Source: Zygnema cylindricum (lineage: Eukaryota; Streptophyta; Zygnematophyceae; Zygnematales; Zygnemataceae). From it: DNA of 64,000 bases. The notes under the pieces are model-generated. The model was not told the DNA's origin, did not search any database, and saw nothing but the letters and a program-made list of their open reading frames with translations. The translations under genes were made by a program, and so were the position numbers. Numbering within the stretch: the stretch's first letter is position 1; each line of letters starts with the position of its first letter. Below, in pieces: positions 2,189-54,046 of the stretch. The stretch is from positions 62,001 through 126,000 of the forward strand of contig JBBHKE010001389.1 in the NCBI GenBank assembly GCA_037447655.1, read 5' to 3'.

Positions 2189-4569
2189 ATGGCTTCCTCC
2201 TCGGAGGCCCCATGAGCAAAATGCAATTCTGCTTTTCAGAGATGAAGGATACAATGTCCTTATCTCATTTCTGTATGCTGTATGATATCGAAATGCGCGA
2301 TTTTGCATTTCGCTATCACAATCGATTTGATCTTCGTGTAGCATTCTCTCTCCTTCGTCAGTACCTCAGAGGTTCGGCTCTCACCTTATTTTACCGCAAG
2401 TATAATAGCATACTCGCGATGACAGAATTTTCCCCTCCTTTTGCTGGCACACCAGAGGTCATAGGAAAAGTGGATATCCCATTTCAGGCAGCTTTTCCTG
2501 AGGTTCTACATGCCTAAGGTAATATCCTAGTTCCCGCTGTCCCGAAAATTCCTCGGCAATATGCTGTGGCTGCACGTGCTGCTGTCCCATCACGATTAGG
2601 GATGACGACTCCGTTGCGAGATCCCCTTTCTGTCATGTTCGATCTCCTAGAAGCGGAGTATCGAATGCATAATCCGGATCAAGTGAAAGAACTAATGAAC
2701 TTCGAAAGTAAACCGGGTGAAACCGCCCTCGCTTTACGTGCACGTATAGAGACGCTACGGGAAGCCTTATCGGACTTGATGTACGATGTAAAAGCTGTCC
2801 AGAAATTTGTTGGACAGTTTTCTGATCACTCAAAACGATTTATCCAAAGTCATCTTACGCAGATATATAGCTTAAAATTTACCTTTGACCAGGCCGCCCA
2901 ATATGCGGTTGAATATGAGATGCAGTCGTGTTGGTGGGAAGCGCATGATTGATCAGAAGTCGCTTCCCCACTCCCCCCACCAAGCAACACATGTCCCAAC
3001 AAAAGGCTTCCGAAGGTCCCGGCCTTGGGAGCTCCACCAGTTAAACCTGGAAATAGATTATGTTTTCGTTGCTGGGAAACAGGGCATGAGGCTTGCATGT
3101 GTCCAGATAAGACAGCCACATGCACTCACTGTCAGCAGATGGGACATTATGCCCACCGATGCCATATTAAAAACCTAGAGTTCTCATATCAGAATCAAAT
3201 CTAGAATGGGGGCATTCTCGCTTGTTCCGCCAAGCCGGTCACCGCGCCTAAAAAAAACGAGAAAGAATCAACTCCTCCTATAATTTCTTGTAGAGAGAGA
3301 GAAAAGATAGAGCTGCAAGTTACTTTTGCAGCTATGATGAAGGAACATTTCACCGCTTTCATGGGGGAGATGAAGCCATAGTTTACCGGAATGGCCCGTA
3401 CGGTCGTTCACACGCCAAAGTTGGCTGGTCGAACCCTTCGGGATTCCACCTTCCAACAACGAGTAGGGGCGTTTGACAAAGGCTCGCCGGATCATAATCG
3501 AGTCGCAAAAATATCAAACTCTCGCATTCCACTATCTTTTGAGAAGGAACCTCACTCTCCTCTTCCAGAAACGACTTCAGATATCGCAGCTGAAGCACTT
3601 ACAATCTTGGATAGTACAATCCTAGATGCTCATCGCGTCAAAGAACGGTTCAGAATCCTTTTGGCCATGATTGAGGACGTGACCAAGGCCTCTCGTTTTT
3701 CGGGTGAGGTCCTTGCAGCTGCCGCTTTACGCGCGTTGCAACTGAATCGCAATCTGACGCCAATCCAACCAATTTCAGCGGACGAACATAGCACGTTAGA
3801 TCCTCACATTAGCTTTCTGGATCACAGTCGACACTCATTCACATTCAATGGTGACGCCCCTTCCCTCCCTCTCATGGACAACGGAGCCAAACCTGTGATC
3901 CTTGGAATTGGATTTGCGTTGAAGCTTAGCCTCACGGTAAACCTGTGGATAGCCTAAATAGCCATGGCTCTAGCTTCCTCTCCAATTTTTCAATGACTGC
4001 GACAAGTGTGGGAGTTGGAGTGAGAAGTTAGAGATAGACTGCCTCTGCTTCTTTGTGTATTTCTATTTTGACCTAGAAAATACTTAAAAAGGGCCATCAA
4101 TTTCTACAATGCGCTCGTTACTAAGTGTAGCGATTACGAATGTTTGGTTGGCCAAGAAGTTATATTTTGGGTTGGCGGCGGTGTAGATATGGAAGACCTG
4201 ATATTCTCTTACAGACCCAATCACTTTCCTGAGCGGAAGATTTGCCTTCCACTTATTTTTGCACGGAGCCCATTGCGTATCATGGCTTTTTCAGCGACAG
4301 TACTTCCGGCTTATGCTAGTATAACCACATTTGATACTAACATTTCTCCATGCATTCTCAAGATTGTCAAGATGGCTTCTAATGGGATGTTGAGTTCACA
4401 AGGTGCAAATTACATGGTTATTAAGGAGCATGCCAAGATGGGTGCTTCACATTATTTGCAAGATATTTCGCAGGACGTGGATTCCAAGCGGATACTCATT
4501 AGAGAGGAGACTTTCGATTCACGTCTTCGCGGGCTTCCGGTTGTGTTTGCTAGCCCCTCCGCAGGCTAA
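2189..4569 (+). pseudogene. Family-G retroelement gag-protease relic, copy A
   Basis: This is the decayed capsid/nucleocapsid and protease part of a gypsy-type element. An ATG at 2189 opens MASSSEAP and soon shifts frame. The gag core follows (KDTMSLSHF near 2245; VKELMNFESKPGETALALRA near 2685). Two CCHC zinc knuckles lie at about 3060-3165 (CFRCWETGH and CTHCQQMGHYAHRC). The retropepsin-like motif LPLMDNGAKPVILG lies near 3865; the canonical D-T/S-G-A reads D-N-G-A. In-frame stops and frame changes separate the parts, and a SINE replaces about 40 codons of the protease at 3959-4084. After the SINE, NALVTKCSDYECLVGQ resumes the protease tail. The 4270-4569 segment is not shared with the methyltransferase-bearing copy. 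Minus-strand copies lie at 41213-43270 and 46113-47200. No RT is seen, so 'gypsy-type' rests on gag and protease layout. Confidence 0.8.
3959..4084 (+). repeat. SINE 3' body inserted in copy A protease
   Basis: Runs from 'agccatggct' to the terminal 'gacctagaaaatac', with the family's middle block 'gactgcgacaagtgtgggag' and 'agactgcctct'. The tRNA-like head is missing, so the copy is 5'-truncated. The retroelement protease reading resumes just after it. Confidence 0.8.
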
Positions 4570-4570
4570 A

Positions 4571-25700: not shown

Positions 25701-25923
25701 TGTCGGCGCTTATTTCAATGGAAGCGGATCACAACTATGCAGGGGAGATAATATTTCAAGAAGACACCAGGTGTTATTAAAGACTCACACGTGTGTCGGT
25801 TTGACAGCGACATATTTCAAAATTTATTCGTTCAAGGCTTTGAATAATTATGTTTGCACACGGGCCAGTCTTGGGTGGGTTATTAATCTTTTTCCAAATC
25901 TAACTATTTGTATTCCCAAATAG
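25701..25923 (+). pseudogene. Terminal LysM-like exon, copy 2
   Basis: Same frame as copy 1: LIVGAYFNGSGSQLCRG, then VLLKTHTCVGLTATYF, FKALNNYVCTRASL and NLFPNLTICIPK, then TAG at 25921. The cysteines and stop position are conserved between copies while many other residues differ. That pattern suggests past selection on the protein, although I could not measure substitution rates. Its upstream exons are absent, replaced by a truncated copia-B end. It therefore cannot be expressed as it stands. Confidence 0.55.
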
Positions 25924-26603
25924 GGAGAGAATAAAACTCGAACAAGAATTATTGAAATTGTATTAAATCGATTTCAAAAAGTTGGCAAAAAAGTGGAAGA
26001 GGATGATGGTAGTGGGAGGATTAATTGCGTTGACGAGATCCAAAAAAATCCGATGAACTTAATTATGTCTAAAATTTTACAGGCCTGATTTTTTTGTAAG
26101 TAATGACAAATTTTCACTCTACCTTTTTTTTGGGAGCCGATAGTTATGTGTAAGAGTTCAGTATAATTTAGAGATTAGTAGTTGAGCGATTTAATAATAG
26201 GGTTCTCTATTACTAAAAAAGAATAAGAAAGCCAAAGGGCTTTGCCGACTACTTATTGTCTTCCTTTCCTACATTGTAATTACATTTCCTTCATATTTTA
26301 TTTGTTTGTTTTTTTTTTGCAAAGGTTTCTAATTTTTTGTTTGACTTCATATGAATTCGGGTACATAAAGTTTGTTTTCATTACTGTTATTGAAATTGTA
26401 AATTAGTAAGAATAGTCACTTTAAAGCTTAACCAATTCCACACAACACATCATACTCACAAAAAACTTCATCTAATTTAGATGTTTTTAACAGGATTATC
26501 ATTTTTTCTTTAGAACTGAGGTTTTGCACATTATTCTAGCCACCGGGGTCGAAATTGTCTTGCTTGATATTGTTTTGTTTGGCATTGCTTTCCTTGATAT
26601 TGT
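25701..26603 (+). repeat. Segmental repeat, copy 2 (left part)
   Basis: Homologous to 20116-21200. It continues after the copia-A insertion at 32750-33070. The last part (26550-26603) is the 'gatattgttttg' minisatellite. Confidence 0.8.
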
Positions 26604-27279
26604 TGTTAATATTTACAATGTTAGAATCTATATTTACGTAATGTTGGTTCTTAGTTAGTGTGGTATAGATTTTGTCGCGCGTCGGTTTTATTTTGTTTGA
26701 TTTAAAACATCGTGCGTCACTTTGTGGATTCAATTTTGTTTCGTTTGATTTAGTATTTCGTGCGTGTACGTTTCACGTGCACATGATTTGATTAGATTAG
26801 ATTTGATTTATTTTTGTTTCGTTTAAGTTCTAGTACCGTACGTCGAGAAGTATCGTTTCGCGCGACATACGTCTAGTTGTTTCGTTTCGCGTAAGTTAAG
26901 TTTGTCGTATATGACTGTCAGTTTGGTTTCTAGTAGTTTCACTTTGTCTTGTACCACATTAACGTCTAAGTACATTTAGACACTTCTAGAGTTAGTGTTC
27001 TAGATTGTTTCCACGACTTAGTTTAAAAAGCCATCGTGTGAGTTAGATTTAACAATTAGGAATCAATCAAGAGTCAATTATGGAGGGATGAATTAAGAGA
27101 AGTGTAATGTTTAAAGGTTGAGTTAATATGAGTTTATTTTGTTGAGTATTCAATTTCTCTCTATCTTGGATTATGCGCCTTTTGATGTGTTCTAATGTTT
27201 GATTTCATTTTAATATGGCTTCCACATTGAGACATTTACGTATTTGTGAGCGCATTCCGATTGACTCTTATTCCTATCA
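26604..27279 (+). repeat. Copia-A 5' LTR
   Basis: Begins TGTTAATATTTACAATG and ends CTTATTCCTATCA. Contains GTCGCGCGTCGG and repeated 'tcgtttcgcg' blocks. Aligns end to end with 32074-32749. Confidence 0.95.
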
Positions 27280-27281
27280 AT

Positions 27282-27293
27282 TGGTATCGGAGC
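27282..27293 (+). other. Primer-binding site for initiator tRNA-Met
   Basis: TGGTATCGGAGC lies two bases after the LTR end. It differs by one base from TGGTATCAGAGC, the complement of the plant initiator tRNA-Met 3' end used by many copia elements. Confidence 0.9.
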
Positions 27294-30300: not shown

Positions 30301-32030
30301 GTTTGCCATCTGTAAGTGAGAAGGGTGAAAGAAATGATGTTGTTGAAGAATAAGTTGTTGTTACGAGAAGTAATCGAGCGAATAAAGGAAAGGCTCCTGA
30401 GAGATTAACCCTTCATATGAATGCTAAAGATAAGTCGGTAAATTTTATTTCAGATGCTAGGTTAAATGAGTTTCTTTTATAGCAATTACTGAGTGAGCCT
30501 CTGAATGGGGATCCTAAGTCCTATTTAGAAGCTGTAGCATCAAGTGATTGGAATGAAAAGTGGAAGCCAGCTTTTGAGAAAGAACTTAAGTCTATTATTG
30601 ATAATGGAACATTTGAAGAAGTAGTTTTACCTGAGGGAAAGAAAGCTATTGATTGTTAATGGGTATTTAAGACTAAGACGGGTGCATCAGGTGAAATTAT
30701 CAAATATAAGGCAAGATTAGTTGGTAAAGGTTTTTAGCAGAAAGAAGGTATAGATTATACTGAAACATATGCACCTTTGGTTAAGTTTGATAGTTTAAGG
30801 ATGATTATTGCGATTGCTGCAAAGAGAAAGCATATCCACCAAATGGATGTGTAAACTGCTTTTCTACATGGAGAATTGGAAGAAGAAGTTTATATGAAGA
30901 TTTTAGAAGGAGTCTCGGGCAAACCTGGACATGTGTGGATGTTGAAGAAGTCGCTCTATGGACTTAAGCAAGCTCCAAGGACATGGTACACTCGTCTTCA
31001 TAAGGTACTTTTGGATTTTGGCTTTGTTCGTACGTTTTCAGATTTAGGTGTTTATGTGAAAGGAGGAGTTGATCAAATTATTTTTAGTGAGTATGTTGAT
31101 GATTTTATTATGATTTCAGAGAGTCTTGAAAGGATTCAAGAATTGAAATATTTTCTTAGTAAATTCTTCAAAGTTACAAATTTAGGAGAAGCTAAGTACA
31201 TTCTTGGTATTGAGGTGATTAGAGATGAGTTTGGTTCTTTGAAACTTAGTCAGAAACAATATTATAAATAAGTCTTAGCTCGATTCTCTATGTTGAATGC
31301 TAAGCCTTTAAGTACACCTTTGGATCCTAGAGTTCAGTTGAGTAAAGCAGAAAGTGAGCCAATAATTGATGTACCTTATAGAGAAGCCGTTGGTTGTTTG
31401 ATGTATCTTAGTGTTGGAACTAGACCAGATATTTCAGCTGTTGTTAGTATTGTGAGTAAATATTGTCAAGCACCTAAGAAGTGTCATTGGGAAAGTGTTA
31501 AAAGGATTTTTAGATATTTGGTAGGAACGTTAAGTTATGGTTTAGTTTATAAGGCAGATTCAGAGTTAGATTGTTTTGGATATTGCGATTCCGATTGGGG
31601 TGGAGACTTCGACACGGGAAAGTCAACATCCGGTTACGCTTTTGTTTTATGTGAAGGTGCGATTTCATGGAGTTCGAGACTTCAACCTACGGTGGCATTG
31701 AGTTCGACGGAGGCCGAATATATGACGGCTTGCCATGCTGCCAAAGCTTCAATTTGGTTAAGGGAGATGTTAAGTGAGTTGGGAATTATCATTAAGTGTA
31801 TGAGGTTATTTTCAGATAGTATGTCTTGCATTGCATTGGCTAAGAATCCAGTGTTTCATAAGAGGACTAAGCATATTAGGATTCAGTGGCATTTTGTGAG
31901 AGACTTAGTAAATGCTGGTGAGATTGAGTTCATTTTTGTACCAACGGGTGAAGAAGCAACGAACATGTTAACTAAAGCTGCTATGTATGATGTCTTTGTG
32001 AGAGGAAGGCCTAAGTTAGGATTATTTTGA
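27354..32030 (+). pseudogene. Copia-A gag-pol polyprotein, interrupted by stops
   Basis: A single reading frame runs from ATG 27354 (or 27429) to TGA 32028. Gag carries two CCHC knuckles (CYKCNKEGHMATNC and CNICQKWGHVSAQC, 28381-28485). The protease shows DSGATHHVC (about 28738). The pre-integrase zinc site uses HHGLCH ... CNGCSIGKQ. The integrase has HVDLCGD, VDDYSRKSW and SPESNGVAERK. RT has KARLVGKGF and YVDDFIMIS (31092). RNase H has YCDSDWGGD and LSSTEAEYM. No frameshift exists in about 1,560 codons, but stops lie at 27381, 27774, 27900, 28017, 28875, 29508, 29622, 29850, 29925, 30351, 30480, 30657, 30735, 30852 and 31269. All can be read as CAA, CAG or CGA with C changed to T (one, 27900, could also be a former Trp). 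Confidence 0.92.
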
Positions 32031-32059: not shown

Positions 32060-32073
32060 ATTGAGAGGGGAAT
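32060..32073 (+). other. Copia-A polypurine tract
   Basis: 'attgagaggggaat' directly abuts the 3' LTR and would prime plus-strand DNA synthesis. Confidence 0.85.
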
Positions 32074-32749
32074 TGTTAAGATTTACAATGTTAGAATCTA
32101 TTATTACGTAATGTTGGTTCGTAGTTAGTGTGGTATAGATTTTGTCGCGCGTCGGTTTCATTATGTTTGATTTAAAATTACGTGCGTCACTTTGTGGATT
32201 CGGTTTTGTTTCGTTTGATTTAGTATTTCGTGCCTGTACGTTTCACGTGCACATGATTTGATTAGATTAGATTTGATTTATTTTTGTTTCGTTTAAGTTC
32301 TAGTACCGTACGTCGAGAAGTATCGTTTCGCGCGACATACGTCTAGTTGTTTCGTTTCGCGTAAGTTAAGTTTGTCGTATATCACTGTCAGTTTGGTTTC
32401 TAGTAGTTTCACTTTGCCTTCTACCACATTAACGTCTAAGTACATTTAGACACTTCTAGAGTTAGTGTTCTAGATTGTTTCCACGACTTAGTTTAAAAAG
32501 CCATCGTGTGAGTTAGATTTAACAATTAGGAATCAATCAAGAGTCAATTATGGAGGGATGAATTAAGAGAAGTGTAATGTTTAAAGCTTGAGTTAATATG
32601 ATTTTATTTTGTTGAGTATTCAATTTTTCTCTATCTTGGATTATGCGCCTTTTGATGTGTTGTAATGTTTGATTTCATTTTAATATGGCTTCCGCATTGA
32701 GACATTTAAGTATTTGTGAGCGCATTCCGATTGACTCTTATTCTTATCA
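32074..32749 (+). repeat. Copia-A 3' LTR
   Basis: Begins TGTTAAGATTTACAATG and ends CTTATTCTTATCA, followed by the target duplication ATTGT. About 22 mismatches to the 5' LTR, more transversions than transitions by my count. Confidence 0.95.
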
Positions 32750-33070
32750 ATTGTTTTCCTCGATATTGTTTGTTTTAATATTGTTTCGCTCGATATTGTT
32801 TTGCCCAAAGTTGTTGTGCTCGATATTGTTATGCTCGATATACTTTTGCTCGATGTTATATCGCTCGATATTGTTTTGTCTAAGGTCGTTTTTCTCGAAA
32901 AAAGAATTCTCGGTTTTTTTTTGCTCAATATTGCCAGTTCTATTTTTGAAGACATTCTTTTTGAGAAACCTATCTTTTTTGTGCGTCCGACGTCCCCACG
33001 CATCGGATTGGCTCCACAGGATACTATTGCGCCCTAAGAGGGGGATTATGTTTCACTTGTATCATTGAGG
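32750..33070 (+). repeat. Segmental repeat copy 2 (right part) with 15-bp minisatellite
   Basis: Continues the array cut by copia-A: units 'gctcgatattgtttt' up to about 32965, then 'gagaaaccta' and 'cggattggctccac' as in copy 1 near 21250 and 21990. Confidence 0.8.
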
Positions 33071-39423: not shown

Positions 39424-41210
39424 TGCTTTACACTCTCTCTCTTCTCCCTTTCCCTCTCCCTTTACCTCTCCCTCTCAATCTGCATCTCTCTCTTCTCCTC
39501 CCTCTCCTTTTCTCTCCCCCTTGCCCTCCCCCGCTCGCCCTCCCTCTCCCTCTCCCTTTTCCTCTCCCTCTCCATCTGCCTTTCCATTTCTCTCCCCCTC
39601 TCTTTCTCTACACAATCTGCCTCCCTCTCCCGTCTCAATATCAATGTGCTATTTCTCCTCCGTATCCCTCTCCCTCTCCTCTCAATCTGCCTATCTGTCC
39701 CCTCTCCTCCTCCGTCTACCTTTTAATCTTCCTCTTCCTCTCCATCTCTCTCTCTCTCCCTCGTTCTCTCAATCCTCTTCTCCAATTCCCACTCTCTTCA
39801 AGTTTGCCTCACCCACTCCACCTCCATCTCCCTCTCCCTTTCCCTCTTCGACCTCTCCCTCTCCCTTTCCCTCTCCCAATTGATCTTCGTTTCTATTTTT
39901 CTTCCTCTCCCTTTCCCTCCATCTCTCCCCCCCTCTCCCTCTCCCTTTCCCTTTCCCTCTCCCTTTTAATCTGCCTTTCCCCCTCCTCCCTCTCCCTCTC
40001 CTTTGAATCTTCCTTTTTCTCCCCACTCTCCCTCTCAATCTACTGCTTAATCTCCTTGTCCCTCTCCCTCTCCTCTCAATCTGCCTCTGTCTCCCCTCTC
40101 CCTCTCAATATGTTTTTTTACCTCTTTCTCCCTCTTCCTCTCCTCTTATTCTGCGTATCTCTCCCCTTTCCCCCTCCCTCTCCTCTCAATCTGTTTATCT
40201 CTCCCCTCTCCCCCTCCCTCTCAATATTACTCTCCCTCTTCCTCTCCTTTTTCCTCTCGATCCTCCTCTCCCATTCTCATTCTCTCCAGGTTTGTCTCTT
40301 CCACTCCACCTCCACCTCCTTCTCCCTCTCCCTCTTCTCCCTCTCCCTCTCCCTCTCCCTCTTCTCCTTTCTCCCTCTCTCTCCCTTTCCCCCTCCCTCT
40401 CCCCTCCTCTCTCTCCCTTCCCCTCCCCCTCTCCCCCCCCCTCCCTCTCCCATTTCCTTTCCCTTTTTCTCTTAATCCTCTTATCCCATTCCCACTCTAT
40501 CCAGTTTTTCCTCTCCCACTCCCCCTCCATCTCGCTCTTCTTCTACCTCTCCCTCTTCTCCCTCTCCCTCTCCCTCTCCCTTTTATCCCTCTCCCTCCCT
40601 CTCCCTTTCCCTAAACCTCTTACTTTCCCTCTCTCTCTCATTCTCCCTCTCCGTTTCTCCCCCCCTCTCCTTTACCCTATCCCTCTCCTTGTTAATATGC
40701 CTTTCCCCCTCCTCCCTTTTCCTCTCCTCTCAATCTTCCTAGCTCTCTCCTCTCCCTCCCAATCTACTTTTTCCTCTCCTTCTCACTCTCTCTATCCTCT
40801 CAATCAGCCTACATCTCACGTCTCCCCCTCCCTCTCCCTCTCAATCTTCCTCTCCCTCTCCCTCGTTTTCTTCTACTCCCTCTCTTTTTCCCTCTCCCTC
40901 TCAATCTGCTTTCCCCCCTCCTTCTTCCTCTCCCTATCCTCCTTATTGGCCTCTCTCTCCCCTCCCCCTCTTAATCAAATATTTCCACTCCTTCTCTGTC
41001 TCCCTCTTCTCTCAATCTACCCATCTCTCCCCCTCTCCCCCTCCCTTTCCCTCTCAATCTTCCTCTCCCTCTCCTTGTCTCTCTTCCTTCGCCTCTTATT
41101 CCTCCTCTCCCATTCCCACTCTCTCGGGGTTTGCCTCTCCCTCAAAACCTCTATCTTCCTCTCCTTCTCCCTCTTCTCCCTCTCCCTCTCCCTCTCTAGG
41201 CATTGGTTGC
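39424..41210. repeat. 1.8-kb CT-rich minisatellite
   Basis: Plus-strand pyrimidine tract with higher-order units marked by 'ctctcaatctgcct' or 'ctctcaatcttcct' every 40-130 bp. It joins the family-G copy B at 41211 after '...ctctctaggcattggt'. Reading frames of over 300 codons inside it are low-complexity artefacts. Confidence 0.95.
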
Positions 41211-41212
41211 CG

Positions 41213-43270
41213 GGCCGAGATAAAGGGTAAGCAAATTTTCCGTTCCGGAAAGTTGTTCAGTCTGTACGAAAATGTCTGATCATGCATATCAACCCCCCCC
41301 CCCATTTCGGAAAATGACGTCTTGACCGACCTAGCATTCATAATCACTACACTTGGTGACCAAGGCATGAGCATATATTTCTACGAAATCATTCGCTGAC
41401 TGACCCTGAAATTGAAAACAGATTGGTTCTATAGTAATACCGAAGACCGACTCTGTGGTATCTGCGAAAGTTAACAAACGTGTGGTAGTGGGTTGTAGCT
41501 TATCTGCTGTAAGACCTATTTTGATTGCAAAATCTGACCCTAGAATAACTAGTTTAGCGCCCATGTCCATGAGAGGCAACGCTGGAGCAACCCCATTAAG
41601 TGTAAAAACATCCAATTTGTTATCTAGGAAACTGATGTGAGGAGTGAGGCTAGAACTCTCTTCAAGAGTAATAGCTTGAAGAGAGAGGGCATTCCCATGG
41701 TTTTGAAGTGTTTGTAACGCCACTGCTGAACGGGTTAGATCTACAGTTTTTTCGTTGCTATCCAGCTCGGGAAGCAAAGTGGATAGGATTGACAAACGTT
41801 CTTTGACCTTATAGGTGTCTTGTATGCTCCTTTCCAGAATTGTTAATGCTTCAGTGGTAATGCTTCAGGCCGTTTTTGGAATAGGTGAGCGAGGTTCTTT
41901 AGCAAACGATAATGGGATACGCGTGTTAATGGATTTTGACTCGCGATTATGATCGGGGGTCCCTTTAAACTGAGATGCCCGTTGTTGAACAGTGGACTCC
42001 CGAAGAGATCGCCCAGCGAAAGTGGGCATATGGACCACAGTTCGAGCCATTCTAGTTAATTGCGGTTTGACTTGCGCCATAAGCGCGGCAAACTGCTCCT
42101 TCATCATAGCCGCAACAGTAGCGTGCATCTCGGCTTTCTCTTGATCCTTTCTGCTGATTTTTGGAGGGTTATCTTTCTCTACCCCTTTGGGTGGAGTGAC
42201 CAATTTTGCCGAGCGAGCAGGTATACCGCCGTTTTTGATTTGATTTTGATAACTGGAATCTGGATTCTTAATGTGACATCAATGAACATAATGACCCGTT
42301 TGATTACAATGAGTACACGTGGCAGTCTTATCCGGACAGCCGCGTGCGTCGTGACCACTGTTACCACATCGAAAGCATATATGAACACCAGGGGTTGTTG
42401 GTTATGTTCTTATGGTTGGAGCCCTTAGGCGTCTCGGATTGGGCCATGGGTTATGTGGATTGGGATTAGGATTCGGGTTTGTATTAGGAGAAGATTTAGG
42501 TCGCTCTTGAGCGTCCCACCAGCTGGTCTGTATTTCATACCGTACGGCATACCGTGCAACCTGCTCGAAGGTAAATTGGAGGCCATATGCCTCAGTCAAA
42601 TGGCTTTGATTGAAACGTCGAGATTGGGTAGGAAATTGCCCCACAAATTTTGAACTGCCTCTGCGTCTAACATGAGATCTGGCAGTGCTTCACGTAAATT
42701 TTCCATACATGCACGCAATGTCGGAGCGGTTTTGCCTAGGTGACGTTGGAAATTCATTAGTTCTTTAACCTGATTGGGATTCTGCATTTGATACTCTTCT
42801 TGTAATCTACTAAAGACAAACGATACTGCATCCCTTATAGGAACCACCATTGCAAGGCGAGCTAGAATTGCTGCCCGAACAGCACAAGCGAACTGATGAG
42901 GGACCTCAGGTATTTCCGGTGAAATTTTGTTACCTGCAGAGTCATAAACTGCAGGTACCGCTGCTTGGAAAAGAACTTCTAGACTACCTGTTATGGCTAA
43001 AGATCCAGAATATGCGGGTGCCATTTTTGTCATATCACAAATTGCCGCATATTTCCATGTATATAGAGATAGGGCAGATCCTCTAAGGTATCGCCCAAGT
43101 AATGAAAAAGCAACCCGTAAATCATAATGGTCTTGATATCGGAATGCGAGATCGCCCATCTCGGTATCAAAAAGCATGCGGAAATGTGACAAGGCCATAG
43201 TGTCCTTGAGACGCGAAAAACAAAACTGATTTCTACCTCCTCCGGTGTCTATGGACGAGGCCATGTCCAC
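41213..43270 (-). pseudogene. Family-G gag-protease relic, copy B
   Basis: Minus-strand gag starts at 43270 (MDMASSIDTGGGRNQFCF), with KDTMALSHFRMLFDTEMGD and VKELMNFQRHLGKTAPTLRA. After a frame change the two CCHC knuckles follow (CFRCGNSGHDARGC; CTHCNQTGHYVH, TGA, CH), then the protease core LPLMDMGAKLVILGSDFA and the tail ITIEPICFQFQG. It ends at KICLPFISARQPMP, where the GA/CT tract begins. This is the longest gag in the window. The catalytic motif reads D-M-G-A. Several stops and one frameshift break it. The codons for V-G-G-G-V-D-M carry a run of 11 C on the plus strand. Confidence 0.85.
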
Positions 43271-45699
43271 AAAGAGGGAATCAAGGTTAGTGTGTATATT
43301 TCCGCCTAAGGGAGAAAGCGAAGGCGGTAGATTTAGATCCTGGATATGAATAGAGTCTATGTCCGAATCTTCCCTCAGTAGTGGGAAGAGGATGAAGAGA
43401 GAGAGGATGTATATCTATGTGTAGTGGTAATACTAGATCTACAGTCGGGTGAACTCGTAAGCTGAGACTGAGCGGTATGACCTAATGACCTAGAAATTGA
43501 ATAGGAGTTGAGCGGGCGGGAATCAAATCCCGGTTCGGTCCACGGTAAAGACTGGAGCTTCTAGTGGTAACAGCTGGAAACAATAAATTGTTGCAGTCTG
43601 TTGGCAAGTAAACAGATAGTCGTCCGGCCATCCCATCCGGATGGAACTAGAAGCCAGACCCTACTCAGGGTCAGTGGGCATATGCCCACTACCATATCTA
43701 CAGATCAAATCACACAGGAATTTTTCAAATTCACGCAAATAGGCACCCACGCAAACATGCACCCCCAAAACGATTTGATCTATTCTGTATCACCGGGGTT
43801 AGTCTAATCGTGAACACCCCTAACAAGGCTGTTCACAGCCAGATCTAAGCAATACCACAATAAGTCACTTCAAGCCACTCCAAGAAGAAACATGTCACCT
43901 ATGCAAGGCCACTTGTGGCCAAATTTAATAAACAGGAAATTATTCTAGGCCCACAAGGCCATATGTAGTAAAATAGGAAACTATCCAAGGCCCACAAGGC
44001 CATATGTAATAAAACATGAAATTATCCAGGCCCAACAAGGCCAAACGTAATAGAAAAGAAGTCGCTATCCAAGACCAAACACAGTCAGATCTAAAGAAAA
44101 TGCAACCACAATGCCTATGGGGAAATGAAGGCACAGCCTTCGGTTGGATCCAAACCTCTCTACGTTATCGCGCTTAACAACCTATCACGCGCTTGCAACC
44201 ACAAAGACCTGATTACTCAAGTGAAGTGATCTGTAAGGGTCTGTCAGAGATGCTCCAACCTCCCTCTAATTCCGAATTGTCGAGAAGAGATCACAGCTCA
44301 AAATACCAACTTAGTTAGTAGCCTATTAGGGCACGCGTGTCAGCACTATGCCACGCCCTGCCCGTCTAAAAAGCAATGACAATTTTCGTTATAATTCGTG
44401 CAACCTAATATATATATATACATATATATATATATGTATTTTTAGATTTTTTTTTTTTTTTTTTTAAGTTTTATTTTTGTTATTTTTTTTTTAAGTTTTC
44501 TAGGTTTTATGAGTGAGTTAATCCGGTAGGAAGATAGAAGGGAAAACGATAACGGAAAGTTCAACAATCTCAAATTCAACAACTCAAAAACAAACTAAGC
44601 AACAAATAAAATGAAAACAAAGGATAACACAAATATACATTTTTTTTCTTTAATTAAAACAAATTCAAAAAAAATTAGACAGGAGACACAAAGAATAAAG
44701 AAAATTAGAAATGAAAAAAATTAAGTATGGGAATATTTGCGACCGTAGCGCTCAAGTCTTTTAATATTCCCTACAGCAGTCCAACCAAGAGACAAGAACC
44801 CTTCCTTAAATGGACAAAAGAGCCGAGATAGCTGGTATTCCCACAAAGCCAGATAGAACTGGAGTTAGACTGCAAAGTCAAAAGTCAGGTAAACTGCAAA
44901 GTCAAAAGTCAAGACTCTGAAAGCAAGAAACACCAAGTCCACAGACGCAATTCAACAACCACAACACGTAGAAGACAGTATAGAGGGAAACCTTGCACTC
45001 TGGCTTGGTTTGGTAGATTAAGTAAGGTCTTAGTACAAAGAGAAGGAGAAGCTCAGAGACAACTACTAGCATTAAACTATGGGTCTGAAAAAGGAAAAAC
45101 CCTAACTTAAAAACTAGCCAGTCACTAAATATTTAGGTGAAACCCTAACAACGGGGTTCGACAAATCCCGAGAATAATGCTTGTCAGAAAACGACAACCT
45201 TCCAATGTTGGATTCCCGTACTTAATTTGCAAAGGTTCTTATCTTGCCAAATGGCATTTATCCTATGTTTTCACCAATCCGTACGGCTACACTAATTCCT
45301 ATTTGTCTCTGAGCAAGTAGGTTTTTATGTTCAAACTCTGCCAGTTTCTAGAGACGACCGCTGTGTGGCCGCCTTAGAATGCCTTACATCTACATCTCGA
45401 GGATGAAAACCCTCCCTAAGCTAAGCAAAAATAATGCATGAACCTCCAAGGGTTCATGACTTCAAACACCTGTCAGGTTTGTAGCCGTTTGAATTCCTGA
45501 CGTCTGATGCCGTACCGCGGTCCAGTTCCACGCTGATTTTACATCGTGTTCCCGTGGTGCCGTACGGGAGTATATTCCGACCTTTTGTCCCGTACGTATC
45601 TCTAGTTGTACTCTCGGATATGAACCTGTCACGTCACTGAAACATCAATTAGTACACGATTAAATCATAATACCCGCTGACGTCTTACGGCATGACACT
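43271..45699 (-). other. Leader/LTR-like region upstream of copy B gag
   Basis: By position and by the recurring 'agatctggc..gccttg' theme (as at 1575-1770) this is the non-coding leader of copy B. It contains a 40-bp tandem repeat (43904-44072), a TA/CATA run with long T runs (44409-44490) and A-rich DNA. No coding sequence was recognised. A 'gggaatcaaatcccggttc' stretch at 43528 resembles a tRNA T-arm but has no matching box A. Confidence 0.45.
43904..44072. repeat. 40-bp tandem repeat, about four units
   Basis: Units of the type 'ggcccacaaggccatatgta' plus an A/T-rich half. Each unit carries a GGCC...GGCC inverted pair. Confidence 0.85.
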
Positions 45700-46110
45700 C
45701 TATCCTCTCAATTAGCCTACCTCTCCTGTCTCCCCCTCCCTCTCCCTCTTAATCTTCCTCTCCCTCCCCCTCGTTTTCTTCTACACCCTCTCTTTTTCCC
45801 TCTCCCTCTCAATCTGCTTTCCCCCCTCCTTTTCCCTCTCCCTATCCTCCTTATTGGCCTCTTTCTCCCCTCCCTCTCTTAATCAGCTATTTCCACTCTT
45901 TCTCTGTCTCCCTCTTCTCTCAATTTGCCCATCTCTCCCCCTCTCCCCCTCCCTGTCCCTCTCAATCTTCCTCTCCCTCTCCCTTTCCCTCTTCCTTCGC
46001 CTCTTATTCCTCCTCTCCCATTCCCACTCTCTCGGGGTTTGCCTCTCCCTCAAAACCTCTATCTTCCTCTCCTTCTCCCTCTTCTCCCTCTCCCTCTCCC
46101 TCTCTAGGCA
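45700..46110. repeat. CT-rich minisatellite, duplicate of 40793-41205
   Basis: From 'ctctatcctctcaat' onward it follows 40793-41205 nearly base for base (estimated above 90% identity), including the junction to the gag-protease relic. Confidence 0.9.
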
Positions 46111-46112
46111 TT

Positions 46113-47200
46113 GGTTGCCGGGCCGAGATAAAGGGTAAGCAAATTTTACGTTCCAGAAAGTTGTACGATCTGTACCCCCCCCCCAACTCGGAAAATGACG
46201 TCTTGACCGACCAAACATTCATAATCACTACACTTGGTGACCAAGGCATCAACAAATATTTTTGCAAAATCGGTCACAAAAAGACTCTGAAATTGAAAAC
46301 AGATTGGTTCTATTGTAATACCGAGCACCGGCTCTGTCGTACCTGCAGAAGTCAACAGATGTGTAGTAGTGGGTTGTAGCTTATCTGTTGTAAGACCTAT
46401 TTTGATTGCAAAATGTGACCCTAGGATAATTGGTTTGGCCCCGTTGTCCATGAGGGGTAACGCCAAAGCGACCCCATTGACTATGAACACTTCTAGCTTG
46501 TTATCCAAAAAACGTATGTGAGGGGTAAGACTAGCCCGTTCTTCAAAAGTAATTGTGTAAAGAGAGAGAGTGTTTCGATTATTTTGAAGGGCCTGTAATG
46601 CGTGTGCAGATTGAGTTAGATCCACGGATTTGGTGTCGTGCACCACATCAGGAAGAATGGTAGACAATATTGATAACCGTTCTTTGACCTTATAGGTGGC
46701 TTGGATGCACTTCTCTAGGATTTTCACTGCCTCAGCTGTAATGCTGAAGGTGGTTTCCGAAATAGGTGAAAGAGGTTCCTTCGCAAATGATAATGGATTA
46801 CGGTTGTTACTAGATTTTGACTCACGGTTATGATCGGAAGTCCCCTTAAACTGAGTTGCCCGCTGTTGAACAGTGGACTCTCGAAGAGATCGACCAGCAA
46901 ATGAGGGCATATGGACCACGGTACGAGCCATTCCAGATAATTGCGGTTTGACTTGCGCCATTAGCGCGCAAAATACTCCTTCATCATGGCTGCAAAGGTA
47001 GCCTACATCTCGACTTTCACTCGGTCCCTCCTGCTGATTTTGGGAGGCGTGTCTTTCTCTACCTCTTTAGGTGGAGTGACCAATTTTGCCGAGCAGGCAA
47101 GTATACCACCATTTTTGATTTGATTTTGATAACTGATTTTTAATGTGACATCGGTGTATGTAATGTCCTGTTTGGTTACAATGAGTACACGTGGCTGTCT
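46113..47200 (-). pseudogene. Family-G gag-protease relic, copy C
   Basis: Minus strand from the second zinc knuckle region (about 47200) through QLSGMARTVVHMPSFAGRSL and LPLMDNGAKPIILGSHFA to the protease tail ITIEPICFQFQS and the CT-tract junction. The long middle frame (46961 to 46146) is open. The G-G-G codons are an expanded run of 10 C on the plus strand. It resembles copy B at roughly 80-85% by eye. Its 5' part is replaced by copia-B sequence. Confidence 0.85.
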
Positions 47201-48480
47201 TATTAGTGTGTTAATCTTTCTCAACTCAGATTCTACATATCCTGCACTAACAAGCTCAACATATAACGCAGCAATATCATTGCAAAACTCTACCATGCTA
47301 CCGCCTTTATAAACATAGGCCTTTATTTCCTGTTTTACTAACTGCTGCCTCTGTATAGTCTCACTCTTATAAATCTGAAGTAGTGTTTCCCAAATTTCTG
47401 AAGACTTGGTTAGGTTTATAAGAGTGACAGCTATGGACTTAGACACGTTTCTAAATATGAGATGTTTTACTATAGTGTTTTTGCACTCCCAAATTTTTCT
47501 GTCATTTTCTTCAGTTTTAGGTTTAGCTATAACCCCTACAAGTGGATGTAGGAGAGAGTCTAGCTCCCCTCACCACAGGTGTTCCTTTACCCTTCTCCCC
47601 TTTTCTCTCTTCGATGGCAATAATTTCCCTTTCACCTTTCGTTGTATCAGAACTCCATTTGGTTTTTGGGGAAGCCCCAGTTGCATCTCCATAGTGAGTT
47701 CCACTGAAGCCCGGTGGCGGACATCTCACTTGTTCCGAAACAATTCCCATAAGTGTTTTCGAAAAGCAATCCCCAGTAAGTTGTTTTACTATAGTAAGTT
47801 GTAAATTCCCAGTAAGTGAAGTCTGTCCTATCAAACATAGGCACCCTAGATAGTGGGCCTATAACTTGAAATTCTATGGGTTCCATTTCCCCACGGAAAT
47901 CGCAGAGCTAAAAAAACTTATTTATATAGTGCCGACTCCAAGTTTATACAAACCCAAGTGACTGACACCTTGACAGTCAAAACTCGTATACAGATTCACC
48001 CTTGTGAAAGAAGACTTTCTGTGTCCTCGGTTTCACCACAGAATGTAAAGCTTGAACATGTCTTTTGGACAACATTCCCCACTATGCCTTTCCCTTAGAA
48101 ATATCGCCACCCTAGCTAACAAAAACTATAACTAGCTTCACTCCTGTGTAGCTTGAACTCCCCTAAGTCCGCAGCAAAAAGAATCACTAAATTTGCTCCC
48201 CTGAGCAGTAATTTATGGCTGGCCAAAGATGGCCTATAAATATAAAAGGTCATCTCGAGAGAGGCGCCTCAAACACGCTAAGTCTCTTAACTCCTACTCA
48301 CAACTACCTACTACTCTACCCTTAACCAATCAAGAGAGTGTATAGTACAAGAAAGTACAGTGGCCGATTGTACTTCTTGTACGACCATTGAACAACATGG
48401 CCTTCTAGTTAACACTTGTCAACTTGGGAGCCATCGTTCCTCCTCCCATCCTTTTCGGCGTCCAATGATGTGGCGCCACG
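47200..48480 (-). mobile_element. Copia-B 5' LTR and gag start joined to family-G gag
   Basis: On the minus strand an LTR (about 48480-47890) is followed by MEPIEFQVIGPLSRVPMFDR (47886) and gag (SSEIWETLLQIYKSE; MVEFCNDIAALYVELVSAGY). Near 47205 the sequence changes, with the frame still open, to the family-G zinc-knuckle region. The LTR shows the 'gtactttcttgtactataca' block and 'cttggagtcggcactat' near its 3' end, a possible primer-site region. The junction is a recombinant or nested-insertion breakpoint. Confidence 0.7.
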
Positions 48481-48704
48481 TGGCACAGCGCGCCACTATG
48501 TCCAAAAGCCGCTGAATATTCATTTGGGTTTGGTGGGGGCGACGTCGTCCGTCCGATAATGTATTTTACACTGTTAGATTCGCGTCCGCGAGCGTCGTTT
48601 GATTATAGATGACGTTTCGTCAATTTTGGTATGTTTAAGTGAAAGTGACGTTCTCTGTAACACTTTAATGAATTGCCGAACTACAAACGTGTATCGTTTC
48701 GTTA

Positions 48705-48938
48705 ACGCCTTAATGGATAAGGCGTAAGTCTCATAGTACTCTGCAAACCAAGGTTCAAATCCTATTTAGGGCAACATTTTGGTAATCTATCAATCTGTCT
48801 ACCTGTCTGCCTGTTTCTTTCTAAATAATGCTGCAGCCATGGTGACTCTCTCTCTCTCTCTTCACTCTAAAGTCTAAATTAAGAAGTGAATATTAATTAC
48901 TTCTTTTCAACATAGACAAATAGAGACCTAGAAAATAC
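48705..48938 (+). repeat. tRNA-derived SINE with clear box A and box B
   Basis: 'taatggataaggcg' fits box A and 'aaggttcaaatcc' fits box B (GGTTCRANNCC) 40-50 bp later, so the head derives from a tRNA. The body has 'gcagccatgg' and a TC microsatellite, and ends 'gacctagaaaatac'. Immediately after it the family-G protease resumes. Confidence 0.75.
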
Positions 48939-48949
48939 ACCCATTTTAA

Positions 48950-49205
48950 CAGGCACCACAGAACTGGTCCTCAGAATTACCAGTCTGCTTTCAATTCCAA
49001 AACCAGTCGGAGACAGATTTCGCAGAGATATATGCCCACCCCTTAGTCATAAAGTGCAATGATTATGAGAGCCTCGTTGGCCAAGGCGTTGTTTTTGGCG
49101 TAAGGGGGGGGGGGGGGGGGGTTGATATGCAAGATCAAACATTTTCTTACAGACCTAACAATTTTTCGTAACGCAAAATTTGCTTACCCCATATCTCAGA
49201 TTGAC
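48950..49205 (+). pseudogene. Family-G protease C-terminus, copy D
   Basis: Reads PVCFQFQNQSETDFAEIYAHPL, then KCNDYESLVGQGVVFGV, an 18-G run, VDMQDQTFSYRPNNFS, TAA, RKICLPHIS, TGA, then QPMP. It matches the tails of copies A-C. In the sister copies the codon before R-K-I-C is Glu, so that TAA is not a simple C to T change. It leads straight into the methyltransferase frame, which ties that frame to family G. Confidence 0.8.
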
Positions 49206-49210
49206 AACCC

Positions 49211-50610
49211 ATGCCTACTACAGCTCATTCTGCGTTAATCTTGCACGCCTATGCCATAGTTGGCATAGGAGCGGACATTGTTGAATCTTTAACAGCGAAA
49301 GAAATTGCATTGGACCCTTTGGGAATACCTAAATTATTTAGTACACCTGGATTTTTCATAAACTCTTCGGAGTTTGACCAACTTTATAAACTTACTATAC
49401 CGATTCTTTTATCTAGTATTCCGGATCCACCCTCCATTACGATGGATCGGTCCGAGTTCTTGCCCATTAAATGGACACCGGTCAATTTACAACCTCACCA
49501 AAAGGGTCTCGTTATCTTCGACCTTTTTGCAAAAATAGGGATTTCACTTCTCTCTTGCCTTCGGAACGGTCTTTTGATAAAACATTACTATTTTGTTGAT
49601 ATTGACCACTTGGCCGGATGCGCTCAGATGCACCACTGTCAAGTCTTGCACGAACAGTATCCTCATCTCTTACCCCAGTCTGCGTTTCACAATATGCATC
49701 CGCTTTGCCACAGGATATCCGGCTAATAGGAAATCATCACTTAATAGAATTGGAACCAATTGATCTCCTCTTTGCCAGATGGGAATGTCAGGGTATGTCT
49801 AGGGCCGGGAAAGGTTTAGGTCTCGCAGATCCGCATACTAAGCTGTTGTTCGAGGTGTTTCGTATGATCCAGATCTTCCAAAAACTGGATCGTCCTTTCG
49901 GATACATCCTAGAAAATATCGCAGCTTATAATGATCTCCGACCCGCGCTTCTCGTAGATTACAAACGCATTGAATCATTGACTGGACCACCGTTAATTAT
50001 CGATGCCGCACGCCATGGTTCGCTGGCCCACCGGGCTCGATCCAAGTGGACGAACTTGGTGGACATGGGTCAGCTCCGAGAAGCTAACCTCGCTGTCCGA
50101 CCACCTAACCTTTCCATTCAGGATGCATTTCTTCCATTTCATATGGTCCAGACATGTATACAGACAGACTATCTTCCTGCATTTGGTCTTAACATCCCGG
50201 GCCAGCCACTACGTGCACTGCCTACACAAGTTGCATATCCACACTCTCACGCATACTAACATAATGGATCGGGCATGCTTCAGTTTACTCATACACGCAG
50301 CTTAGAAGAACCTACTGCTGCAGAACGAGAACATCTTTTACATTTCATTCCAGCCGCCTCGAAACTCACCAAGCCGCAACGCTGCACCTTACTTGGTTAA
50401 GTCATGGACCCGCAATCATTGTCATTCGTCTTAGGCATGGGGTTTACAGCTGGTAGATACGCACAGAACAATCCTTCTAAATCAGCGAGGTGGGGCATAC
50501 ACCATTTAAACATACAACATCTAAGTCCGCACCTTCTCTCCGGGTACAACTTTTCAGCTCTCCCTCTTTCCTTGCGCTGCCAAGTCGGACATAGCTCACA
50601 CTATTTATGA
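49211..50610 (+). pseudogene. Retrotransposon-borne C5 DNA methyltransferase
   Basis: Encodes a cytosine-5 DNA methyltransferase-like domain that would transfer a methyl group from AdoMet to DNA cytosine. Motif I: FDLFAKIGISLL (about 49520). Motif IV: WECQGMSRAGKGLGL, catalytic Cys codon 49786; the usual P-C-Q is E-C-Q. Motif VI: FGYILENIAAY. Motif VIII: SLAHRARSKWTNL. C-terminal motifs: EPTAAEREHLLHF and QRCTLLG. The order and the L-F-E-V-F-R, E-N-I and A-H-R-A-R stretches recall DNMT3 and bacterial Dcm-type enzymes. The N-terminal part (49211-49726) is in another frame, with a frameshift near 49690-49726. TAA stops lie at 50257 and 50398 (the latter in LLG-stop-VMDP). It follows directly after the family-G protease. 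Probably inactive as it stands. Confidence 0.82.
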
Positions 50611-51059
50611 TTTTTTGGTCCCTAGTCATATGGGTTGGTCTCGCTCAACATACACAGCCGCTAGGTCTCAGGCACCGGCCCAAGTATCCCCACACTGGAC
50701 AGCTGCATTTCCGTCTAGAAGTTGGCATATATTGTGGGGATACCAACTATCTCGGCTCCTCCGTCTAGTTCAGGCAAGGTTTTTAACAGCTGGTTGGACT
50801 CCTGTAGGGCATATCTAAAGGACTTCAAAGCCTAAAGGCTACTATCGCAAATATAAAATTCCAACCTTACTTACCCGACCTTCCTTTATCTTTTGTTTGT
50901 TCCAGTCCATGTGTTTCGCATGTTTGTTTTTCTTGGTAGATTCATTTATTGTTTGATGCGGAATAAATGCTTTTTATGGTGGTTGTTGTCACAAATACTA
51001 TACATAGATGTTGATGGACTTTATTCTGGTGTTTTTTGACGACTCAAGCTAGGTTTAAT
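50611..51059 (+). other. 3' remainder of methyltransferase copy, no domain named
   Basis: 50615-50818 has an open frame (ARFLTAGWTPVGHI at its end) that may continue the retroelement polyprotein after a shift, but I recognise no RT, integrase or RNase H motif. 50820-51050 is non-coding and could hold the element end. Copia-B begins at about 51060 on the other strand. Confidence 0.35.
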
Positions 51060-54046
51060 ACATGCCATTCACAGTAACCCTGCCATGTACGACACCAATC
51101 GAGCCTTGCATCTCTCAATGGTATTATTTGGGTTCAGTTTTAGTTTAAACACCCATTTACGCCCAATAGGTTTTCTGTACGGAGGACAGTCCACTAGTTC
51201 CTAAGTATTTTCTTCCATGATGGAGGCCATCTCATCATTTATGGCTTTAATCCATCTGTCTTTCTCCGGACTGTTCACTGCCTTCGAGTATGACTGAGGC
51301 TCATCTGGCTGCGATAGCGTAGTTACCTTGTGAGCGGCCTGTTTTTCTTGTATCTTTTTGCTGCTCCTTCTCCCTCCCTCAAACTCCAAGCAGAAATGGA
51401 GAGAAGTCTTGGATTTCTCCTTACTGTCTTATCGGCTCCCCTGTCCATGGAAGTCGGTTCCGGTTCCTCCTCTTCTGTCTCCTCGAAGTCCACAAGAATA
51501 TGTGAGGTTTCTGGTGGATCTCCTGTATCTTCGACCCCCCCTGAATCTGCAATCCATGTTTCGCTCATGTTTCTTTTGGGAAAGATGGAGTCGACCTCAC
51601 CTTCGGACTCAAATTTGATTCTTATCTTTTTGGTACATTTAAAAGGGTCAAATTACTTCCCTTCATCCATGACAATTTGGTGTTTGACCAAAATGATATC
51701 TCTCTTTGCTAAGTCATAGACTCTTTATCCCTTGACATCGTCATCATATCCTACAAAGTATACAGGATTTCCCTTAGCATCTAGTTTCCAGTTTTTCCTA
51801 TCCGTGTCAAGACTGTAAACTTGGCTACCGAATGCTATAAGGTGAGAGATATCTAGTTTCCTTCCAACACATCTCTCATAAGGTGTGACTCCCTTTATAG
51901 CTTAGGTAAGGACTCTATTTTTATTTTAGTTGGCACAGCTCATGGCTTCTGCCCAAAATCTCTTTCCTATTTTCTTGTCGGCCAACATACTGCATGCACT
52001 ATATCCTAGTTATCGGTTCAACCTCTCACCTACCCCATTTTGTTTTGAGTTACATGGTACGGTTTTCAAGAGCTGATTTCCCTCATCTCTCAAGTATTCC
52101 TCAAACTGGTTAGAGGTATATACCCCCCAATTATCACTCTTTATTCTCTTAATGGGGGTTCCATGCAACTTCTCACTCCAGGCTTTATATTCTTTGAAGT
52201 AAGTTGGTGTTTCAGACTTTGTTTTTAGGAAGTAGACTCAAGAGTATCTATACCAGTCATCGGCTATTGTCAACATATACCTCTTTCCTCCAACCGAAGG
52301 TGCTTTTGCAGGTCCCCAGATATCTGTGTGGAAAAAATCTAGTACTTTCTCACCTCTATATGTGGCGGGTTTGGGAAAGGGAAGTCTATGAGCCTTACCT
52401 TGAGCACAGCCACTACAATCATCCACCATTTCATTATCCCCAAACTGAATGTCTTCTATTCCACCAAGCTTTTGTCATTTCCCTGAACATATCATAATGC
52501 ACATGCCCTAATCGCTTATGCCAAATCATGAACTTTGGAACACCAACATAGTAAGCATTGTTCTTTTCATTACTCAGGTTAAGCCTAAACATTCCTTAGC
52601 TACCATTATCTGTCGTGAAGTAGACTTCTTCCCTATACTTAGTTGTAAAGACTCCCTTTCTAGTGAAGGTATCAAACACTTTGTCATCTAACACAGACGT
52701 AGAGACAAGATTTTTACTCAGCTGAGAAATGTAGAGCACATCTGAGAAGGTGAGTATAGAAGTCTTACACTCCACTAAGACTTTCAGATCTACCGACCCC
52801 ACTAGATCAAATGTAACCACTCTTCCATCCCCATACTCTATCTCTTCAATAGGGATTTTTCTTAGCATGACAAAGAGGTGCTTATCACGACACATATGCA
52901 TGGATGCACCTTAGTTGATAATCCATCCTTTCTGTGGAGCTTCTCATTTGCTCCGAGAGCACACTTATGTTTCCGAGGGATCTCCATCTCTTCCAGACTC
53001 TCGTCGTGAAGAAGCTCCCCATCCTCCCCCTCAAAGGACTCGTCCCCGGTCTCTCTTCTCACTTTTGTGACCACAAGTGTCTTCTTCTTCCCTCCGCAAG
53101 AACCCCCTCCACGGTTCTCTTGGAGCCTTAGCTTCGACAGCTTTACACAATTTGCTATGAAGTGTCCCGGCTTATTGCGAAAGTGACAAAGAACCTTTAG
53201 GGACCTCGGCCCTCCAAACTTATCTCTCTCTCCTTTGAATGGTTTCTTCTGATCATTCCCCCATCGGTTTCATTTAGAGCTTGGATGATCTTTCCCCCTC
53301 TCCTAATCTCAATTGTGTTTTCTTGCACAAGTATCATCCGAACCACTCAGTCAGTTAATTCTTGTACTCGGTACACTATGTTTTCATACTCGTCGGGTAA
53401 CTTCATGATGAGAGTGTTAACTTTCATCTTCATTGTACTAGTCCACCCGGCACTCTCCATCTCCATATATAGACAAGGGAGATCATTACAATATTCTAAC
53501 ATCTTTGCCCATTTGAGAGTATAATTCCATAACTTCTGCTCGGCCAACTGGAGCTCTTGAAGAGTACCAACTCTATAGATTTCCACCAAACTCACCCACA
53601 ACTCCTCAGCCTAGTAAATGTGAAATTGGGGGGTTGCCAAAGCTTTAGTGAGGTGTCTTAGAATGAAGTTTTTGGTAGCCATGTTAGTATCTTTCCACAT
53701 TTGGGTATCGTTTTTGGGGTCTTCACGGTCGCCGCTCCGGGTGTCGTGGTAATAGGAGCAAGAAGCGTCTCCTTCTCATTCCCCTTGTCGAACACACTAC
53801 TGTCCCCATCATCTGCCTCTTTTGTTGCAGCACGTGCTGCTGTAGAATAACCTTATTCCACAAAACCCTGGTGGAGTTCCCTGAGGTGGACGTTTCACTT
53901 ATCCACTGGCAATACCCCTGTATCGTTTTTCGCACAAAGCCCCCATCATCATGGCTTCCCAATAGAAAAACCCAGATCCATTGAAGGTGGGCACCAAAGA
54001 GGGTGGGCCCATAACTTGCAATTCTCTGCCCTCCATTCGACACCAT
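51060..54046 (-). pseudogene. Copia-B gag-pol relic, cut within RT
   Basis: On the minus strand: gag (AEQKLWNYTLKWAKMLEYCN; LIMKLPDEYENIVYRVQELT), a CCHC knuckle (CHFRNKPGHFIANC, about 53186-53145), a protease-like segment ending GASMHMCRDKHLFV, the integrase zinc region (DDCSGCAQGKAHRLPFPK) and core start (DFFHTDIWGPAK), a linker with acidic repeats, RWIKAINDEMASIMEENT and the RT start KPIGRKWVFKLKLNPNN. It stops at about 51060, so RT catalytic motifs and RNase H are gone. Many stops and frameshifts. Its 5' LTR follows at 54047-54600. Confidence 0.8.

Follow-up and report, generated by a model that had tools for sequence, protein, structure and literature searches.

A retrotransposon family of Zygnema cylindricum with a captured cytosine-5 methyltransferase in its polyprotein

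The window, a stretch of 64,000 nucleotides from Zygnema cylindricum (assembly GCA_037447655.1, contig JBBHKE010001389.1, positions 62,001 to 126,000), contains at 48980-51094 the remains of one member of a retrotransposon family that is present in many copies; this member is decayed and has lost internal sequence. The recognizable parts of this copy and the insertion next to it are as follows.

48680..48940 (+): SINE-like insertion just upstream of the protease remnant, its head resembling a tRNA (read by eye)
48980..49198 (+): C-terminal remnant of the protease region (tblastn, 67% identity to the intact genomic frame)
49205..49723 (+): open reading frame (ORF) with the N-terminal part of a cytosine-5 (C5) methyltransferase, including a decayed motif I (the intact frame matches 49481-49699)
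49606..50256 (+): ORF with methyltransferase motifs IV (RWECQG), VI (ENI), and VIII (AHRAR) and the region after them (PF00145 and DNMT3A matches)
50260..50466 (+): C-terminal methyltransferase motifs (ERE..., MDPQSLSFVLG), in the same frame beyond stop codons (tblastn)
50493..50728 (+): what is left of the linker that joins the methyltransferase to reverse transcriptase (RT) (tblastn, two pieces, 71 and 77% identity)
50732..50853 (+): 3' end of terminal repeat A (79.5% identity to A of an intact copy; also matches window 44846-44754)
50857..51094 (+): terminal repeat B, ending ...ACGACA (70.9% identity to B of an intact copy)

The C5-methyltransferase motifs that a first-pass annotation had recognized here are real. 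The ORF at 49606-50256 matches the Pfam family DNA_methylase (PF00145; 1.1e-6, 28.8 bits, cut-off 22), DNMT3A chains in the PDB (1.2e-7), and two DNA methyltransferase families in PHROGs (6.4e-9 and 2.6e-7), and on these scores the resemblance is well beyond chance. The ORF at 49205-49723 taken alone has no Pfam or PDB match. By tblastn with the intact genomic frame, the region from motif I to motif IV lies in two pieces (49481-49699 and 49699-49824), and that from motif IV to motif X lies at 49825-50466. The same annotation had the tail of a gag-protease element running directly into the methyltransferase frame. The order is as it described, but the single open frame is not, since in the methyltransferase a frameshift separates the motif I piece from the motif IV piece and in-frame stops stand at 50257 and 50398; motif I itself is changed (FAKIG, versus FAGIG in the intact frame). 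Likewise, the protease is present, but gag is not found beside the window copy, where the protease match starts at about 48980. The DNA at 48979-49217 is 75.3% identical to that at window 41427-41197.

Downstream, tblastn gave no match to RT, RNase H, integrase, or PHD finger beside the linker remnant, and this copy lacks the remainder of pol. The feature had been taken to end at 50610 but extends to about 51094, because repeats A and B of the element itself form the end of the copy; homology in its tail (50732-50825), considered as possible coding sequence, is repeat A. The insertion at 48680-48940 carries a motif that we take to be tRNA-like, and its tail resembles, by eye, that of an insertion at about 3955-4085 in another copy of the family. 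ARAGORN found no tRNA genes in the window. Between window 49205-50725 and the most complete genomic copy (L009), C-to-T or G-to-A differences occur at 25 of 156 CpG sites and at 56 of 652 other C/G sites (Fisher p 0.0075). This excess of about twofold fits methylation-driven decay but is only suggestive of it, because L009 is not the ancestor of the window copy.

Further members of the family lie elsewhere in the window.

2203..4566 (+), or 2203-4583 at its widest: fourth, more diverged copy, internally deleted (tblastn; gag 62%, zinc knuckle 73%, protease 53%)
41295..43270 (-): third copy, with gag, zinc knuckle, and protease, then a CT-rich array (tblastn)
44734..45697 (-): repeat A of the second copy, starting TGTCATGCCG, right behind a CT-rich array (84.6%)
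46167..47204 (-): second copy, in which zinc knuckle and protease adjoin a copia-type gag, with the junction at about 47204 (tblastn)

No methyltransferase match was found by tblastn in the second, third, or fourth copy. In the fourth, gag and protease span 2203-4266 (+), and the protease tail runs into an apparent integrase C-terminus with the ...SAG stop typical of the family's end and a polypurine tract (join read by eye); given this apparent junction of protease and integrase end, the part from methyltransferase to RT has been deleted. CT-rich arrays at 39435-41200 and 45698-46140 follow the protease in two minus-strand copies, and the start of repeat A right behind the array in one of them suggests non-autonomous derivatives.

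Other elements are interspersed with these copies. The copia-type gag at 47204-48402 (-) is accompanied by an LTR-like repeat, with similar DNA at 25131-25702 and 14495-14891 (Retrotran_gag_2, 5.1e-10 for 47003-47569 by Pfam), and its junction with the family's zinc knuckle looks like a chimera or a nested insertion. Direct repeats at 26603-27283 and 32073-32753 are 96.8% identical and probably LTRs, and the frames between them (27384-32027) look by eye like a copia polyprotein. The only clear host-type domain among the scanned frames is a legume-lectin domain (PF00139, 2.5e-7) at 5924-6460, which would suit a plant host.

Searching the assembly that holds the window (352,776,454 bases, 2689 contigs) with the enzyme as the query gave 151 matches from the 150 scored of 1467 candidates, on many contigs. 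Identity among the matches listed ranges from 58 to 100%, and many have no stop in the matched stretch. Eleven places were taken at 10 kb, mostly picked for long open frames and therefore no random sample. The longest open frame, of 2395 amino acids in L009, encodes in order gag, a zinc knuckle, a protease, the C5-methyltransferase, RT, RNase H, an H2C2 zinc domain, a DDE integrase (rve), and a PHD finger. Pfam matches above the cut-off cover the H2C2 zinc domain, the methyltransferase (PF00145, 2e-11), RT (RVT_1, 1.4e-29), RNase H (RT_RNaseH, 2.6e-34), integrase (rve, 1.7e-11), and PHD finger (PF00628, 1.5e-9, 38.1 bits, cut-off 24); the zinc knuckle and protease score under it, and gag, which has no Pfam match, is named from its position and the zinc knuckle behind it. 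By tblastn with the domains of this frame, methyltransferase, RT, and integrase are found in the same order in all 11 places, gag and protease lie ahead of the methyltransferase in 10 (absent in L020), and the PHD finger lies behind the integrase in 9 (absent in L013 and L020). In most of the places this order is spread over several frames through stops and shifts. Overall, the capture of the methyltransferase is real: the enzyme occurs in many copies as part of a retrotransposon polyprotein, whose domain order (gag, protease, RT, RNase H, DDE integrase) is of the Ty3/Gypsy type.

With its broken frame and with several nested elements around it, the window copy might suggest that a host methyltransferase gene had been interrupted by retroelements and that the protease had come to lie beside the enzyme by accident. 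We regard this as extremely improbable and reject it: gag, protease, and methyltransferase stand together in 10 of the 11 places, once in a single open frame with RT, the enzyme matches are on many contigs, and at its end the window copy carries repeats of the family itself. The proposal that a retroelement had captured a C5-methyltransferase thus stands, with gag, protease, methyltransferase, RT, and integrase in one polyprotein between split A and B repeats. These split repeats had escaped the first-pass annotation, as had the PHD finger, the sister families, and the extent of the defects in the window copy.

The terminal repeats are arranged like those of DIRS-type elements. In L009 the layout is A1, coding region, polypurine tract, B1, GC, A2, B2; A1 and A2 are identical over 931 of 931 bp, and B1 (about 243 bp) and B2 are 99.6% identical. 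The repeat order is the same in L017 (A of 1475 bp, 99.5%) and in L012 (111 mismatches between A1 and A2 in 1106 aligned positions), so that the arrangement A1-coding-B1-A2-B2 is complete in three of the four copies with flanks. In the fourth, L011, B1-GC-A2-B2 is seen, with A2 matching at 705 of 931 positions before B2, and the 5' A repeat was not found in the flank. The junction CATGCACGACA-GC-TGTCATGCCG is common to all four (L009, L011, L012, and L017). Instead of an identical simple LTR at both ends, L009, L012, and L017 have A only at the 5' end and B-A-B at the 3' end. The outer ends of the element are TGTC...GACA, flanked by 4-bp target duplications that are exact in L009 (TTGG) and L017 (CCCT) and imperfect in L012 (TCAT/GCAT). 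That the repeats of L009 are still identical indicates that the family was probably recently active.

Despite this repeat order, there is very little chance that the element is a true DIRS retrotransposon using a tyrosine recombinase: no tyrosine recombinase is among the Pfam matches of the open frame, which holds an rve (DDE) integrase with H2C2, and the 4-bp target duplications and TG...CA ends also speak against it. We infer instead that the split repeats arise through a circle. Ordinary LTR copying would yield a cDNA with an LTR of the form B-GC-A at both ends, bounded by the polypurine tract on one side and the end of A on the other. This cDNA would be joined end to end, and the integrase would open the circle at the palindrome GACA-GC-TGTC inside the repeat, which would produce the observed order A1-coding-B1-A2-B2.

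The enzyme itself is, by score, of the Dnmt3 type. When a profile of ten copies was compared with the PDB, the best 29 of 40 sequences were DNMT3A/B/C (1.5e-9 to 1.1e-6), followed by HaeIII (0.0032) and HhaI (from 0.0057). C5-methyltransferases of phages (237 records, best E 1e-14) and plasmids (90 records, best E among the 20 listed 5e-8) also match, so that a bacterial or phage source is possible. Peptide-pattern searches of viral and prokaryotic collections gave no match for one pattern and 13 and 18 stretches in two others, none of which was confirmed. A reduced form of the C5-methyltransferase tree suggested by the first-pass annotation had 20 rows; its comparators were a 151-residue DNMT3A fragment, three enzymes of phages, and two of plasmids. 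It united the retroelement enzymes in one group (100/99), within which copies with Glu-Cys-Gln (E-C-Q) in motif IV form one branch (100/99) and groups with Pro-Cys-Gln (P-C-Q) form the other (89/96), but it placed them only weakly (57/89) among these few comparators, with a program warning of long branches meeting, and their source did not emerge from it.

Gag packages RNA. Since the polyprotein also holds gag, the target of the enzyme might be RNA, either that of the element or the tRNA primer, rather than DNA, and RNA methylation was raised by de Mendoza and colleagues for the LINE type of element (PMC5890265). We consider an RNA target improbable, because the solved structures nearest to the enzyme are those of DNMT3, which acts on DNA, and DNMT2 is not among the 40 PDB sequences listed.

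The motif IV sequence E-C-Q in place of P-C-Q had been noted as either a lineage trait or a decay mutation. Counted with one fixed pattern, with same-place duplicates removed and the window copy included, the residue before the catalytic Cys is Glu in 23 of 24 readable places, Val in one (L037), and Pro in none. Five copies missed by the pattern (L013, L015, L027, L028, and L035) also show Glu, and five others (L018, L020, L022, L030, and L038) have no readable motif IV. A PF00145 search of the assembly (782 candidates, 123 scored) led to further methyltransferase groups; a script that accepts only Pro or Glu before the Cys read 30 of its loci as 20 P-C-Q, 6 E-C-Q (the window's family), and 4 unreadable. 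The P-C-Q copy L076 has an open frame of 1520 amino acids with methyltransferase (8.2e-13), RT, RNase H, and integrase, along with a weak PHD match (0.0044) and an upstream protease frame (22.3 bits, cut-off 24.3), both under the cut-off. A second P-C-Q group (L077), seen in part, has methyltransferase and RT in one frame of 901 amino acids. With Glu in 23 of 24 readable places and P-C-Q kept in sister families of the same genome, decay is rejected; on the copies read, E-C-Q is a family trait, fixed in the branch to which the window family belongs.

Glu for Pro beside the catalytic Cys could lower or alter activity. It is possible, though rather unlikely, that methylation has been lost or made poor by this change and that the domain now serves as a nucleic-acid-binding or structural module. 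The near-uniform Glu would fit such a role, as would a comparison in the viral collection, where AGWECQG, a narrow pattern, occurs in 7 stretches with no methyltransferase-like frame, versus 40 stretches with AGWPCQG, of which 27 pass as methyltransferase-like and one more (L122) does so by eye. However, apart from motif IV, where Pro has become Glu, motifs I, VI (ENV), VIII (RxR), and IX-X are kept in the aligned stop-free copies, as is the catalytic Cys, and a P-C-Q sister family shares the order methyltransferase, RT, RNase H, and integrase.

Pairwise dN/dS values (NG86; pairs with dS outside 0.03-1.5 or with fewer than 40 codons dropped) are low for the methyltransferase, with a median of 0.217 among 16 stop-free copies (30 of 120 possible pairs, which are not independent) and of 0.236 among 13 copies with a stop (37 of 78 pairs). 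Medians for the other domains are 0.268 for RT-RNase H (7 copies, 5 pairs), 0.191 for the PHD finger (8 copies, 7 pairs), 0.267 for the protease (7 copies, 5 pairs), and 0.369 for the integrase (5 copies, 2 pairs); gag gives 0.039 (2 copies, 1 pair). These values speak for constraint in the past of the lineage and not for present activity, because stop-bearing copies behave alike, the pairs share history, and few pairs passed the filters.

PHD fingers are a kind of module that often reads histone marks. At E <=0.01 the PHD end of the polyprotein matches 91 distinct PDB sequences, and among the best 60 of the 91 the top match is PHF12 (5.9e-17). With a methyltransferase and a PHD finger in one polyprotein, the element may be a writer as well as a reader of chromatin marks: the methyltransferase would be packaged with RT and would form 5-methylcytosine in freshly made cDNA or where the element inserts, and the PHD finger at the end of the integrase would bind a histone tail and guide insertion. 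As a joint explanation, a polyprotein with methyltransferase and PHD finger, packaged methylation, PHD-guided insertion, and integration through a permuted circle is, in our judgment from the sequences, fairly likely. More speculatively, and with a good deal of doubt, the family may represent a clade of LTR retrotransposons equipped with an epigenetic writer and reader. In one very successful branch of it, the fixation of Glu under constraint would point to an altered chemistry or substrate, for example an RNA-DNA hybrid or single-stranded cDNA, and the DDE integrase would insert a circularly permuted product opened at the internal palindrome.

As a rule, retroelements are on the receiving end of cytosine methylation, yet this family, which was probably recently active, encodes a methyltransferase and a probable histone reader. 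It is directly testable whether the element methylates cDNA of its own or selects the chromatin that it enters, and the change of Pro to Glu, fixed beside P-C-Q sisters in the same genome, is an experiment of nature with the catalytic loop. Should the proposed circle be true, a DDE integrase uses ends other than those left by reverse transcription.

Among known systems, DNMT3A/B/C provide the best-scoring solved structures and resemble the enzyme in motifs IV to VIII, but the window family differs in its Glu in motif IV and has a linker and a target region of its own; the Pfam matches of the L009 open frame include neither a PWWP nor an ADD domain. Chromoviruses are Gypsy elements with a chromodomain at the integrase C-terminus that is thought to guide integration. 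The family resembles them in having a probable chromatin-binding module in that position, but this module is a PHD finger, and no chromodomain is among the Pfam matches of the L009 open frame.

Captured C5-methyltransferases have also been described in the SymbioDIRS-Dnmt3 and SymbioLINE-Dnmt retroelements of Symbiodinium, and the SymbioDIRS enzymes methylate CG in yeast (PMC5890265). Those elements have DIRS or LINE backbones with a tyrosine recombinase or an endonuclease, whereas the backbone here is that of gag, protease, RT, RNase H, and DDE integrase. The window family matches, by description, the published KnitGypsy-Dnmt3 type of the charophyte alga Klebsormidium nitens, in which a Dnmt3-like enzyme lies inside the Pol polyprotein of a Gypsy element, DIRS-like repeats are combined with Gypsy domains (figure legend), and key residues are conserved under purifying selection with Ka/Ks below 0.2 (PMC5890265). 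The position of the enzyme in a Gypsy Pol, the DIRS-like repeats, and the conserved residues are shared on that description, as is purifying selection, although our median of 0.217 is slightly above the published bound. A host among the streptophyte algae would make kinship with KnitGypsy-Dnmt3 likely; for land plants, it has been stated in print that transposons encoding a methylase do not occur (PMC6338049). The main text of the KnitGypsy-Dnmt3 paper mentions no PHD finger, gag, or chromodomain for KnitGypsy-Dnmt3, whereas a PHD finger is present here, and a literature search of partial coverage found no report of a PHD finger and a methyltransferase in one Gypsy element. Retroelements with a captured methyltransferase are a known kind, of which this family is a new form by virtue of its PHD finger, its fixation of E-C-Q, and the sister families that share its genome.
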